From IMG/VR virus record IMGVR_UViG_3300035701_000194, positions 1 through 29,839 of that record: a DNA stretch of 29,839 bases; one strand, given 5' to 3'. The DNA comes from a virus. Below the pieces are notes generated by a model that was not told the origin of the DNA, ran no database searches, and saw nothing but the letters and a program-made list of their open reading frames with translations. Position 1 is the first letter of the stretch; the number at the start of each line of letters is the position of its first letter. Positions 8,281 through 20,695 of this stretch are shown piece after piece. A program made the translations under genes and the position numbers.

Positions 8281-8759
8281 TAGATATAAAGAAACATCAT
8301 TCTTGGGGTAATACCACTGATTCAGAAAGATTTTTCCATAATGTAACAAAAACTGATTCTTGTTGGATTTGGACTGGTGCAATTGGTGATGATGGGTATG
8401 GGAGATTTAGGATTGGTCCAAAGATTTTTCGTTCACATCGTTATGTTTATGAATTTTATTATAAAGTAGATCCTGATAATCTTTTAGTTTGTCATACTTG
8501 TGATAACATTGTATGTGTTAACCCAGAACATTTATTTTTAGGCACACAAGCTGATAATTCAGCTGATCGTGATAGAAAGGGTAGGCAAGCAAAGGGTGAA
8601 GGGAAACCAAATACTAAATTAACCGATAAAATTGTAAGCGAAATTAGACAGCTTCGTTCTACTGGTTTAAGGATTGTTGATATTGCTAGGAAGTTAGTAT
8701 TACCTTGGATAACTGTTTGGAAAATTACAAGTGGTCGTGCATGGAGGCACACATTATGA
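8277..8759 (+). CDS. HNH homing-type endonuclease with C-terminal helix-turn-helix
   Basis: A 160-residue protein. The core CHTCDN..CVNPEHLFLGT has His73, Asn82 and His85 of the HNH site, with Cys72, Cys75 and Cys80 nearby; the following ADNSADRDRKGRQ is typical of phage HNH enzymes. The N-terminal CWIWTG and GYGRF strands also fit. Residues about 113-150 look like a DNA-binding helix-turn-helix, as in modular homing endonucleases. Such genes are selfish: they cut a sister genome and are copied in by repair. It lies freely between genes and not in a visible intron. It overlaps neighbours by ATGA on both sides. Confidence 0.88.
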   Translation: MIDIKKHHSWGNTTDSERFFHNVTKTDSCWIWTGAIGDDGYGRFRIGPKIFRSHRYVYEFYYKVDPDNLLVCHTCDNIVCVNPEHLFLGTQADNSADRDRKGRQAKGEGKPNTKLTDKIVSEIRQLRSTGLRIVDIARKLVLPWITVWKITSGRAWRHTL

Positions 8760-9670
8760 GAATCGCATTACTGTCTACTATGTCGTGCAAATGTGGAGTG
8801 GCAGAGTATACTCGTTATCTTGGTAAAGCATTAACAGATAATGGTGTTGAAGTTTATTATTTAGCTAATATAATTTCTGGTAAAGGTAATCAAGATATCT
8901 CTGCATATACTGCATCTGAAGATCCACTTAATGTTTATAGAATATTTAGTGTTGCTGGCTGGAGTGGGGAAACTTTCTTTGAAATTCCTCAATCAATTAA
9001 AGATATAAATTTTGATGTTGTACATGTGCAATACCAAAGTTTCCTTTATGATAAGTCTTGGTTCCCAGAGTGTTTACGGGAATTAAGGAAGATGAATACC
9101 AAAACTGTATTTACTCTTCATGATTCTAATGTTGTTGGTAATGCTTTAATAATGGCTGATGGGGTTGTATTTCATTCACACGAAATGAAGGATGCAGTTC
9201 AAACGTCTGCTAAGTCAATGTTAATACCAAGTGGAATGCCATTTAAGAAGCCAAAGTTAATGTCTTTCGGTCTTGGTAGGTCTAACTCTTCTATGGTTAG
9301 GGATGTTTGTAACGAATTAGATTTAGATTTTGAAGAATTACATTGGAGCAATTGGTTAACCCAGGAAAAGTTAATAGAAAAGTTAAAGACAGCAGATGGT
9401 ATAGTTTTATATTATCCACCTGACAATGCTAAAGTTTGTAGTTCCTCTGTGAAGGTAGCTTTATCAACTTACCGTCCAGTAATAGTATCAGACACAACTT
9501 GGTTTTCTGATCTTGATGATAATTTTGTTACTAAATGTCCTTATGGGGACAAGCCACGTTTACGAACTACTTTAAATAGTATTTTCTATAAGAGAGACTT
9601 CTTCAAGAATCTTGGGTGGGACAGTATAGCGAAGAGGCATGTGAAGTTCTATGAGGAACTAAATCAATGA
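8756..9670 (+). CDS. GT4-like glycosyltransferase
   Basis: A 304-residue protein starting at the ATG that overlaps the HNH stop; an earlier in-frame ATG at 8705 lies inside the HNH gene and is unlikely. CGVAEYTRYLGKAL near residue 14 and DVVHVQYQ near residue 83 are the N-terminal Rossmann features of GT-B, family-4-like transferases. In the C-terminal half, CSSSVKVALSTYRPVIVSD resembles the donor-site loop and helix. Phage enzymes of this kind may put sugar on modified DNA bases, on virion proteins or on host surface glycans; nothing here decides which. The next gene overlaps it by ATGA. Confidence 0.72.
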   Translation: MRIALLSTMSCKCGVAEYTRYLGKALTDNGVEVYYLANIISGKGNQDISAYTASEDPLNVYRIFSVAGWSGETFFEIPQSIKDINFDVVHVQYQSFLYDKSWFPECLRELRKMNTKTVFTLHDSNVVGNALIMADGVVFHSHEMKDAVQTSAKSMLIPSGMPFKKPKLMSFGLGRSNSSMVRDVCNELDLDFEELHWSNWLTQEKLIEKLKTADGIVLYYPPDNAKVCSSSVKVALSTYRPVIVSDTTWFSDLDDNFVTKCPYGDKPRLRTTLNSIFYKRDFFKNLGWDSIAKRHVKFYEELNQ

Positions 9671-11175: not shown

Positions 11176-11391
11176 ATGGAGTTTGAATTCAACCCTGCTA
11201 CAATGACTTATATGTATTGTTTCTCTCTATTAGAGCATACTTTAGATCATCCAAAAGTAATGGAAAGAGTGTATAGTGATTACAATAATGCAATTTCACT
11301 AAAACAAATTGAGAGGAACATTTTGGATGGTAACAGGAACAGGCCACGTTTTGAACGGATGCGATCTTTAATCCGAAAGGGAAAAGTATGA
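11176..11391 (+). CDS. Small hypothetical protein, 71 aa
   Basis: A 71-residue helical protein starting at the base after the preceding stop, with GGGGG about eight bases upstream. The C-terminus is rich in Arg. No family recognised. It overlaps the next gene by ATGA. Confidence 0.6.
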   Translation: MEFEFNPATMTYMYCFSLLEHTLDHPKVMERVYSDYNNAISLKQIERNILDGNRNRPRFERMRSLIRKGKV

Positions 11392-11597
11392 TTTGTAACA
11401 TTCAGTCTAATGATATGTGTGTTCATCCCGAATTGTTTACCACTCAATGGGAGCAGAAGAAGCCAGAGCCTTGTCATTTTATGCAATGCAAGTGTGGGAA
11501 GAATACAACTTGTCCTGTGTGTGGGTGGGGAATGGGGTGTTACCCTTGTGACTGTGATGAAGTTGAAGAAAGGAAAGAAATATGGTCAAATGCCTAA
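11388..11597 (+). CDS. Cys-rich small protein, 69 aa
   Basis: A 69-residue protein holding ten Cys. CHFMQCKCG and CPVCG..MGCYPCDCD in residues 29-57 make it the densest candidate metal-binding protein in the cluster. A second frame (11410-11616) overlaps most of it but lacks such structure, so I take this one. It overlaps the first radical-SAM gene by 16 bases. Function unknown; a zinc or iron-sulphur site is possible. Confidence 0.65.
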   Translation: MICNIQSNDMCVHPELFTTQWEQKKPEPCHFMQCKCGKNTTCPVCGWGMGCYPCDCDEVEERKEIWSNA

Positions 11598-12580
11598 ACT
11601 CATTCTATTTACCTAGCGGTCGGATCTTTTTGTTAGATTTAGGTAATGGTTATCCGGTTGAATGTACCGAAATGCGGGATGTTTCCACGGAAGGGAAAGA
11701 GCATCAGGAAGTAAGGAGTTCCAATGACCCCCATGTAATTTGGAACCATCTTAAGCCTTATGAAGAGAAGTGGTTGCTAACTGTTTCAACACAGATGGGT
11801 TGCCCACATAAATGCAAATTTTGTGACGTTCCTTCACTTCAGTTTAAAGGTAATTTAACTCAGGGGGAGATTGAAGATCAGATTAGATTTATTATAGAAG
11901 CAACTCCTTATGTAACTAAATGTAAGAAGGTGAAGATTGGGTTTGCTCGGATGGGTGAGCCAGCCCACAATATAGAGAATGTAATTGGGGCAATGATAAA
12001 TCTTGAGTCTATTTCTAGATTTTATGGGAAAGATTTTCAATGGCTTCCTTGCTTTAACACAATTTTACCAGTTTTCGTAATGGGGGATTTTACTGGAATT
12101 CAGGTATTAGATTCAGTACTCAATTTGAAAGAGGAATTCTTTGATGGGAATCTTCACCTTCAAATCAGTTGCAATTCAACTGATGAAAAGGTTAGAAAGG
12201 ATTTGTTTGGTGGAGCAGAGGTAGTTCCAATAAAAGATATTGTTAAATACATTAATGATAGGCCACTACACAATAGGACCGCTACATTAAACTTTATTGT
12301 AATGAAGGGTGTTCCTGTTGATGTTAATGAACTTATGGGTTATGGACTTAATCCAGAGAAGTTTACAGTAAAGTTAATTCCATTAAATACTACTATTAGG
12401 TCCAAGGACAATAAGTTAGAGACATATGCTAACTATGATAACTATGAAAAGTTACAAGAGTTAGGGGAGGAATTCAAAAAGCATGGTATTCCAATCGTTG
12501 TTGATTCCATTGCTAAGTGTGAGGAAGCTGGTCTATGTTGTGGTCAGCTTGCACAAGTGTTTGTGAAGAAGAATGTATAA
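11582..12580 (+). CDS. Radical-SAM protein of the RlmN/Cfr type, lacking the first catalytic Cys
   Basis: A 332-residue protein. C74-PHK-C78-KF-C81 is the iron-sulphur CxxxCxxC motif. RMGEPAHNIENV near residue 123 matches the RlmN GMGEPLLN..NV segment, KLIPLN matches its NLIPWN, and CCGQLA at 319-324 matches the C-terminal ACGQLA that holds the methyl-carrying Cys (Cys355 in E. coli). RlmN methylates A2503 of 23S rRNA and A37 of some tRNAs; Cfr makes 8-methyladenosine and blocks antibiotics. Both need a second Cys seven residues before the cluster. Here that position is Thr67 (LTVSTQMGC). The reaction is therefore probably altered. It overlaps the next radical-SAM gene by eight bases. Confidence 0.8.
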   Translation: MVKCLNSFYLPSGRIFLLDLGNGYPVECTEMRDVSTEGKEHQEVRSSNDPHVIWNHLKPYEEKWLLTVSTQMGCPHKCKFCDVPSLQFKGNLTQGEIEDQIRFIIEATPYVTKCKKVKIGFARMGEPAHNIENVIGAMINLESISRFYGKDFQWLPCFNTILPVFVMGDFTGIQVLDSVLNLKEEFFDGNLHLQISCNSTDEKVRKDLFGGAEVVPIKDIVKYINDRPLHNRTATLNFIVMKGVPVDVNELMGYGLNPEKFTVKLIPLNTTIRSKDNKLETYANYDNYEKLQELGEEFKKHGIPIVVDSIAKCEEAGLCCGQLAQVFVKKNV

Positions 12581-13295
12581 CTACGCTAGCATTTTGTTCA
12601 CAGGTGTATGCAATGCTAATTGTCCATCTTGTATTGGGAAGCTCCCTGAGTTTAAAAATTTTAAAGGGAATTTATCCATTTATCCATTACCAGGGATGGA
12701 AGCCTTCTTAAAGGAATTAATTTGGGCAAAAACGGAATATATTAGTTTCTCTGGTATTCTTGCTGATCCTCAGCAATATGAGCATGAGATAGAACTAATT
12801 AATTATCTTAGGAAAAAGTTGCCGGGTGTGGTAATTTCATTACATACCAATGGTTTATTAGCATTAAAGAATATGATTGAGTATCGTAATTACGATAGAG
12901 TTACTTTGTCTTTCCCATCTTTCAAAAAAGATATTTATAAAAAAATGACTGGGGTTAACCAAATAGATTTAATTAGGATTCTTGACAGATCTAAACTTTC
13001 AGTAAAATTATCAATGCTCTTGACGGAAGAAACGAAAAATGATATTGATAGTTATATAGAGAAGGCAAGGAGACTTGGTATAAGGAGGGTGGTGATACGA
13101 AGGATGTTTGGTGAGAAAGAGAAAATTAAAGTATTTCCTGTGGATGAGCCATATAAGTATGTTTATGGTAATCCAGTTTATGATGTTAATGGAGTGGAAG
13201 TGACTGTATGGGATTATGCAAAATCCACGGTGAATGCCTTATTCCTATTTCCAGATGGAAGTGTTAGGGGAAGTTTTCTTAGAGAGAATGCTTAA
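12573..13295 (+). CDS. Second radical-SAM protein
   Basis: A 240-residue protein with C13-NAN-C17-PS-C20 right after a first strand (YASILFTGV), the standard place for the radical-SAM cluster. FSGILADP at about residues 59-66 stands where many members have GGEP, so that motif is degenerate. LHTNG near residue 90 fits the next strand. It has no C-terminal SPASM Cys set and does not match QueE or an activase convincingly, so the substrate is unknown. Because it overlaps the RlmN-like gene, the two probably act in one pathway. It ends against the SNF2 gene. Confidence 0.75.
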   Translation: MYNYASILFTGVCNANCPSCIGKLPEFKNFKGNLSIYPLPGMEAFLKELIWAKTEYISFSGILADPQQYEHEIELINYLRKKLPGVVISLHTNGLLALKNMIEYRNYDRVTLSFPSFKKDIYKKMTGVNQIDLIRILDRSKLSVKLSMLLTEETKNDIDSYIEKARRLGIRRVVIRRMFGEKEKIKVFPVDEPYKYVYGNPVYDVNGVEVTVWDYAKSTVNALFLFPDGSVRGSFLRENA

Positions 13296-19888: not shown

Positions 19889-20695
19889 ATGGCTATTGAA
19901 ATATCTCATGTTGCCCCTACAAAGTACTTAAAAGTTGTTGATGAATTCTGTAAGTTTCATTTGGTTAATGGGGCATTGATTGGTGTTGATAAGGAGTATA
20001 CGGACTTTTTCATTAATAGTAATAAGTATAAGATACTTAATAATGGTTTTGTTGAGGGGCAACCACTCAACATTCATGACTTAATCATTTCGGCTCAATT
20101 AATTAATGCTGACGAGGTTGTTTGTCCAGAAATGATTATTAGTCCAGAGTTAGCAGATTGCCGGATGGAAGATTTTTGGAATGCCTGTAAAGGAAAGTTT
20201 AAGGTGATGGTTGTTCCTCATGGGGAGAATGCCACTGAATGGCATGAAAGTTTGGGTACATCCAGAGAGTTAGATAAGAAATATAAAATTAATTCTGTTG
20301 GATTGGCTGCTTCTGTACTAGCTGATGCTTACAAAGATATAACAGGTATGAATGCTACTTATCCAAATAGGTTAGAGGTATTAAAGAACAGAAGGCTTCG
20401 GGACACTTTTTACGATCTTAAGTGGGACATTCACCTACTTGGTCTTTCCACCAGGGGTGGTAGGGAATTGCTTGAATCTTCTTTACGTCCAGAAATCAAA
20501 CGATGCAGTACTTCAATTGCTTACCAAGTTTCAAATGAAGGTGGGGTGTTGATGTATAATGATTATGATTTTGTAAGGGTGCATAAGCCTGTTAATTATG
20601 CTGATGAATATGATAATGAAGTGGCTTTCAGGCTTCGTGGTAGTTGTCAGGCGTTGAATGAGATTGCTAAAGGAATTACTATGAACGTTGAATAG
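19889..20695 (+). CDS. DpdA/TGT-like protein (possible 7-deazaguanine transglycosylase relative)
   Basis: A 268-residue protein. Its ordered motifs resemble the phage DpdA branch of tRNA-guanine transglycosylases: LNNGFVEG at 50-57 (DNGxxE in the family), ADEVVCPE at 74-81 (usually ending PD), VMVVPHG at 106-112 (VPQG), NSVGLA at 135-140, and HLLGLS at 182-187 before a short Arg/Ser-rich stretch. DpdA swaps guanine in DNA for a 7-deazaguanine base. Here the Asp of DNG and of the later pocket appear as Asn and Cys/Ser, so activity is in doubt. No queC, queD or clear queE is seen in the window. The overall fit to the family is moderate. It has a strong ribosome-binding site. Confidence 0.5.
   Translation: MAIEISHVAPTKYLKVVDEFCKFHLVNGALIGVDKEYTDFFINSNKYKILNNGFVEGQPLNIHDLIISAQLINADEVVCPEMIISPELADCRMEDFWNACKGKFKVMVVPHGENATEWHESLGTSRELDKKYKINSVGLAASVLADAYKDITGMNATYPNRLEVLKNRRLRDTFYDLKWDIHLLGLSTRGGRELLESSLRPEIKRCSTSIAYQVSNEGGVLMYNDYDFVRVHKPVNYADEYDNEVAFRLRGSCQALNEIAKGITMNVE

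Follow-up and report, generated by a model that had tools for sequence, protein, structure and literature searches.

The window analysed here, a 29,839-nucleotide stretch of viral DNA, encodes a radical-SAM protein from a family that the features tested set apart from both RlmN and Cfr. Members keep the methyl-carrier cysteine of RlmN and have no counterpart of its resolving residue, Cys118; the best reading is that they form a separate, RlmN-derived variant within the class A radical-SAM methylases, with a target that likely differs from that of RlmN. We give about even odds (a probability near 0.5) to a more specific reading, that these enzymes keep the methyl-carrier step and act on nicotinamide or an NAD-related small molecule, and not on rRNA.

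The two-cysteine mechanism is defined by RlmN and Cfr, and an enzyme of this kind that loses its resolving Cys is left stuck on its substrate. RlmN methylates A2503 of 23S rRNA or A37 of tRNA at C2. In the mechanism of RlmN and Cfr, the carrier Cys receives a methyl group from SAM, a radical from a second SAM makes Cys-CH2, which adds to adenine, and a second Cys takes the ring proton, letting the adduct break up; Cys118Ala or Cys105Ala/Ser variants remain crosslinked to RNA (PMC9692996, PMC13001441). Nature offers a test of the resolving Cys's role in this large family, where that residue never occurs and one clade has the carrier Cys on a separate protein of 40 residues. If NAD or a relative is indeed modified, bacteria and phages would have a hitherto unknown step in their NAD metabolism, one that might matter for NAD-depletion immunity.

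The window protein has threonine at the site of the resolving cysteine

In a phmmer search against the PDB, the window segment lltvstqmgCphkCkfC pairs with LCVSSQVGCALECKFC of E. coli RlmN (3rf9), which places Thr67—seven residues ahead of C74 in the cluster motif C74-x3-C78-x2-C81—on Cys118 (Table 1). The protein ends in AKCEEAGLCCGQLA, where Cys320 aligns with Cys355 and the Cys319-Cys320 pair is followed by GQLA. The first-pass annotation of this DNA had already proposed a Thr in place of Cys118, and both this alignment and the family alignment below bear it out. Profile searches likewise left Thr67 standing, with no Cys at the Cys105 position of Cfr; the window protein falls below the cut-offs for RlmN (TIGR00048; 60.2 bits, curated cut-off 290) and for the Cfr profiles (48–50 bits, cut-offs 530–550), and matches the phage family phrog_24834 over residues 58–321. 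Its score against the Pfam radical-SAM profile PF04055 is 27.7 bits for a gathering score of 29.5, and motif and fold agree with radical SAM. Among the RlmN-like motifs listed at first pass, the cluster and the C-terminal CGQLA stood, whereas the GEP segment reads ARMGEP and not MGMGEP as in RlmN.

Table 1. Features of the RlmN-like gene and its neighbour in the window
Feature	Position	Strand	Basis
RlmN-like radical-SAM protein, 332 aa, CC clade	11582..12580	+	ORF; phrog_24834 E 1.3e-33; PDB sequence and fold matches to RlmN
Thr67 at the site of RlmN resolving Cys118	11780..11782 (codon ACT)	+	Alignments
CX3CX2C cluster motif, Cys74-Cys78-Cys81	11801..11824	+	Sequence; invariant in 195/195 family members
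Cys157, candidate second catalytic Cys	12050..12052	+	CC clade 16/16, others 10/179, RlmN 0/14
Cys319-Cys320; Cys320 counterpart of methyl-carrier Cys355; Cys319 in CC clade only	12536..12541	+	
rSAM2, second small radical-SAM protein, 240 aa, Cys13-Cys17-Cys20	12573..13295	+	PF04055 E 1.4e-9

The AlphaFold model of the window protein (pLDDT 94.9, pTM 0.93) upholds the RlmN/Cfr-type fold claimed at first pass: its best match is RlmN (3rfa_B; Z 25.7 over 275 residues, rmsd 2.9 A), its second is Cfr (9p0p; Z 18.4), and other radical-SAM folds reach about 14. The RlmN match begins at RlmN residue 78, and the window protein has only 60-odd residues ahead of the barrel; the N-terminal HhH RNA-binding domain is thus absent. 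Cys157 sits on strand 151–160 of the model. A 69-aa Cys-rich ORF, probably zinc-binding, lies immediately upstream and overlaps the RlmN-like gene (11388–11597).

Set against known systems, the family has the radical-SAM barrel, beta-extension, CX3CX2C motif and C-terminal CGQ carrier Cys of RlmN (E. coli 3RFA, 5HR6; TIGR00048), but lacks both Cys118 and the HhH domain. Unlike RlmN, it has Q194, N237 and K264, NAD-gene neighbours and a split form. Cfr (9P0P; TIGR04432, NF000424) resembles the window protein in fold and C-terminal carrier, and its profiles align over residues 60–324, but it has a resolving Cys105 and an N-terminal domain, neither of which the window protein possesses. Similarity to phrog_24834 extends to Thr67 and the C-terminal Cys; this phage family includes a protein of Bacteroides phage Versailles (WAK79139), which belongs to the CGN clade, has TCGN and not CCGQ, and has no second radical-SAM gene adjoining.

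A family of added enzymes in phages and cellular genomes

Scans of viral and genome collections recovered hundreds of relatives of the window protein; when only the three closest sequences served as queries, a scan of the genome collection found none. The alignment comprised 195 relatives, drawn from phages and from cellular genomes, and 14 canonical RlmN proteins whose genomes also encode a family member. Cys occupies position 67 in all 14 RlmN proteins and in none of the 195 relatives, which instead have Thr (96), Gly (62), Met (15), Asn (9), Ala (5) or, in a few, other residues, so Thr67 is not attributable to chance or sequencing error. Three further positions are nearly invariant in the family and differ in RlmN—Q194 (A/S in RlmN), N237 (E) and K264 (N). 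R123 is found in 195/195 members where RlmN has G, though partly by construction, with RMGE in the search pattern and filter. Glu27 is invariant and common to both groups, aligning with RlmN Glu105, and the carrier Cys is present in 129 of the 131 members that reach that far.

The tree separates the family from RlmN (support 0.96) and divides it into four clades: split (62 members), CGN (87), CC (16, including the window protein) and SNCGQ/TSCGQ (28), with a Moorella chromosomal member (L254) as sister of the CC clade. A standard RlmN was also present in every one of 16 genomes checked, 15 times above the cut-off and once just below, so the family represents an added enzyme. The first-pass description of a phage enzyme holds in that phages do encode it, but the family is not exclusively phage and also occurs in bacterial operons. 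Five Elusimicrobia members (L274, L307, L314, L319, L323) are 485–515 aa long and have Met at the Thr67 position; they lie near genes that, named by reading, resemble coaBC and panD of CoA synthesis.

In one clade the carrier cysteine lies on a separate peptide

Split-clade enzymes, with Gly67, stop short of the carrier Cys. Of 64 non-redundant split loci, 62 have a nearby gene for a separate peptide of 40–60 residues with an AACGQ motif; none of 147 fused loci does (0/72 viral, 0/75 cellular). At one split locus (L238, on a contig shared with L159) the AACGQ segment stands at the end of a longer ORF, and at another where no peptide was found (L180) the contig stops less than 1 kb past the enzyme gene. 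The 40-aa carrier peptide of Moorella phage MTATph1 reads MGTLLAELAHAGFDYAFAVATQEEIKNGAACGQLSMIMEE, and Vibrio phage D479 (L004) encodes the AACGQ peptide as a tandem duplicate. With one stop read through, enzyme and peptide form a single chain whose model fits RlmN residues 80–363 (Z 26.5). From sequence and model together, the carrier segment of this clade probably acts in trans.

We also considered whether stop-codon read-through or selenocysteine completes the short members, and rejected this: among same-frame peptides the stop is TAA with a single exception, and the majority of peptides are encoded in a different frame or as much as kilobases from the enzyme gene. Frame, stop and distance thus mark the split-clade peptides as separate genes. 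Across loci L003–L008 and L090–L248, a 40–60 aa ORF with the AACGQ segment adjoins enzymes without it. Other radical-SAM genes occur within 10 kb in 18 of 63 split loci, and at four loci (L213, L219, L220, L228) proteins of 69–114 aa adjoin the split enzyme and resemble RiPP precursors in having tails of the CSRG/CSHG type with Cys as the last residue.

The window's clade gained cysteines and has a second radical-SAM gene nearby

Cys319 is found in 16/16 members of the CC clade, in 0/179 other members and not in RlmN. The proposal that it takes over from Cys118 is therefore rejected as a general explanation, but within the CC clade it is possible, with Cys157 an equal candidate; the distribution of Cys157 (Table 1) makes that residue a candidate for a second catalytic Cys that has moved. 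The second radical-SAM gene, rSAM2, whose start overlaps the 3' end of the RlmN-like gene in the window, adjoins every CC-clade gene in either order, with one gene between in a few loci. By HMM it was recovered in 11/11 viral CC loci (window included) and 4/5 cellular ones; the fifth cellular locus (L249) has it by BLAST clustering, the sister L254 also carries it, and the other groups have none (0/61, 0/64 and 0/69 loci). That the two genes stay paired while their order changes argues for one pathway. A PDB sequence search with rSAM2 gave no useful match.

NAD genes cluster close to the family

All four clades have members adjoining NAD-salvage or nicotinamidase-like genes. In split loci, NAD genes account for 5.8% of the genes up to 2.5 kb away and for 1.9, 0.3 and 0% further outward; the corresponding series, again beginning with the innermost genes, is 5.3, 0.9 and 0% in cellular loci and 1.6 and 0.4% in viral fused loci, for a category that was picked after the neighbours had been seen and whose genes were called mechanically. 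Most single loci have no NAD gene in the flank, and the window, itself a fragment, has none by HMM.

The genes involved differ among clades. Split phage loci encode NAMPT in 17/57 and NMNAT in 17/57, with NAD kinase and a macrodomain in a few, and an NMNAT-like gene is present at three loci of the CC clade and its sister (L250, L251, L254). Cellular CGN loci carry PncB, PncA-like, NadE, NadD, PncC and NrtR genes, and one of them (L273) has PncB, NadE, NadD, PncC and NrtR in a single operon run, confirmed by Pfam and NCBIfam. The enzyme gene of the SNCGQ clade adjoins a nicotinamidase-like gene of the isochorismatase superfamily and one for a flavoprotein resembling pyridine-nucleotide-disulfide reductases; the PncA profile reaches the entire isochorismatase superfamily, and PncA-type matches in this clade are at superfamily level only. 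The hydrolase–flavoprotein–RlmN-like cassette was seen in bacterial and archaeal MAGs (L259, L263, L269, L276, L293, L297, L301, L302, L315), with the isochorismatase-type hydrolase and flavoprotein fused in L276 and the hydrolase not seen in L259.

NAD genes are frequent in large phages, with NadV in 22–33% of the larger ones (PMC9503650), yet frequency alone gives no placement within 2.5 kb. The genes of phage NAD+ salvage and reconstitution (NadV/NAMPT, NadM, NadR; PMC9503650, PMC12774641) are the same ones that adjoin many family members. Neither "radical" nor "RlmN" occurs in the virus-wide NAD survey (PMC9503650), and searches of the open-access literature gave nothing relevant for a radical-SAM gene in NAD operons or for a split RlmN. 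We consider the link between the family and NAD to be good circumstantial evidence.

A proposed mechanism and competing readings

Family-wide loss of the resolving Cys, the missing RNA-binding domain, the altered barrel residues and the NAD context together point to a new target, and lend support to the first-pass suggestion of new chemistry or a different target. With the carrier kept and the second Cys never present, a changed substrate is the most economical reading. For an enzyme of NAD metabolism, we envisage that SAM would methylate the carrier Cys (Cys320), that a second SAM would yield a 5'-deoxyadenosyl radical, and that the ensuing Cys-CH2 radical would add to an sp2 ring carbon of a small molecule—candidates being nicotinamide or nicotinate nucleotide, NAD, or the adenine of NAD. 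By general pyridinium radical chemistry, a charged pyridine ring would be a ready radical acceptor and would lose a proton more easily. Release without Cys118 might then follow from easy proton loss by a pyridinium-type adduct, or another group could act: Cys157 or Cys319 in the CC clade, the dissociating peptide in the split clade, or the neighbouring flavin disulfide reductase in the SNCGQ clade. In the CC clade, rSAM2 may act in the same pathway as the RlmN-like enzyme.

Glu27, common to the family and RlmN, counts against a small-molecule substrate and makes adenine in RNA a possible target. The enzyme could accordingly be an RNA modifier that methylates adenine in tRNA or another RNA, with another group replacing Cys118 and incidental NAD neighbours; the RlmN fold fits this, and RNA modification is frequent in phages. 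We think it unlikely, given that the family has no N-terminal RNA-binding domain, that barrel residues are changed relative to RlmN, that NAD genes cluster near the family in independent sets, and that hosts already carry RlmN. Without a resolving Cys, Cys-CH2 might instead stay joined to its target and consume the carrier, as in the crosslinked RlmN and Cfr variants (PMC9692996, PMC13001441), leaving a peptide–nucleotide link in the split clade and a self-inactivated enzyme in the fused clades. A separate, cheaply made carrier peptide in 62/64 split loci, in tandem copies in Vibrio phage D479, would suit such a reaction. It is nevertheless rather improbable: the fused form predominates and is conserved in operons of bacteria, for which an enzyme good for a single turnover would be wasteful, and both the Cys157 and Cys319 gained in the CC clade and the disulfide-reductase-like neighbour in the SNCGQ clade speak for turnover. 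The suicide trap for host RNA envisaged at first pass is the fused-clade form of this outcome, and it has no direct support in view of the missing RNA-binding domain, the bacterial operons and the split form with its detachable carrier.

The small separate peptide, the further radical-SAM genes in 18/63 split loci and the four loci encoding small proteins with CSRG-like tails would also accommodate a RiPP-like maturase, with the CGQ peptide or the adjoining small proteins as substrate. This seems very unlikely, as the peptide is a homologue of the catalytic C-terminus of RlmN itself and, in the model, fits onto RlmN, while CSRG-type proteins are rare and none is near fused members. Comparably speculative is a scheme in which the carrier Cys is a consumed co-substrate: a thiomethylene bridge would join the peptide, or the enzyme's own C-terminus, to the nicotinamide or adenine ring. 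Phages and bacteria would share this system, whose product would be either an NAD-type cofactor tethered to a peptide or a mark placed on the NAD pool.

Other genes in the window

By eye only, the ORF at 19889–20695 (268 aa) appeared DpdA-like, and 7-deazaguanine DNA modification was considered; the ORF has no match in Pfam, PHROGs, phage records or PDB sequences, and the idea was dropped. A short ORF at 2741–2965 has a type IV prepilin-like N-terminus (MRKGFTAIELMICISVVAIILAIIF), here in a phage contig. The gene at 8705–9670 encodes a glycosyltransferase 4-like protein (PF13439) and comes after genes for a deaminase, an HNH endonuclease and an N6/N4 DNA methyltransferase; a role of this group in DNA or surface modification is possible.
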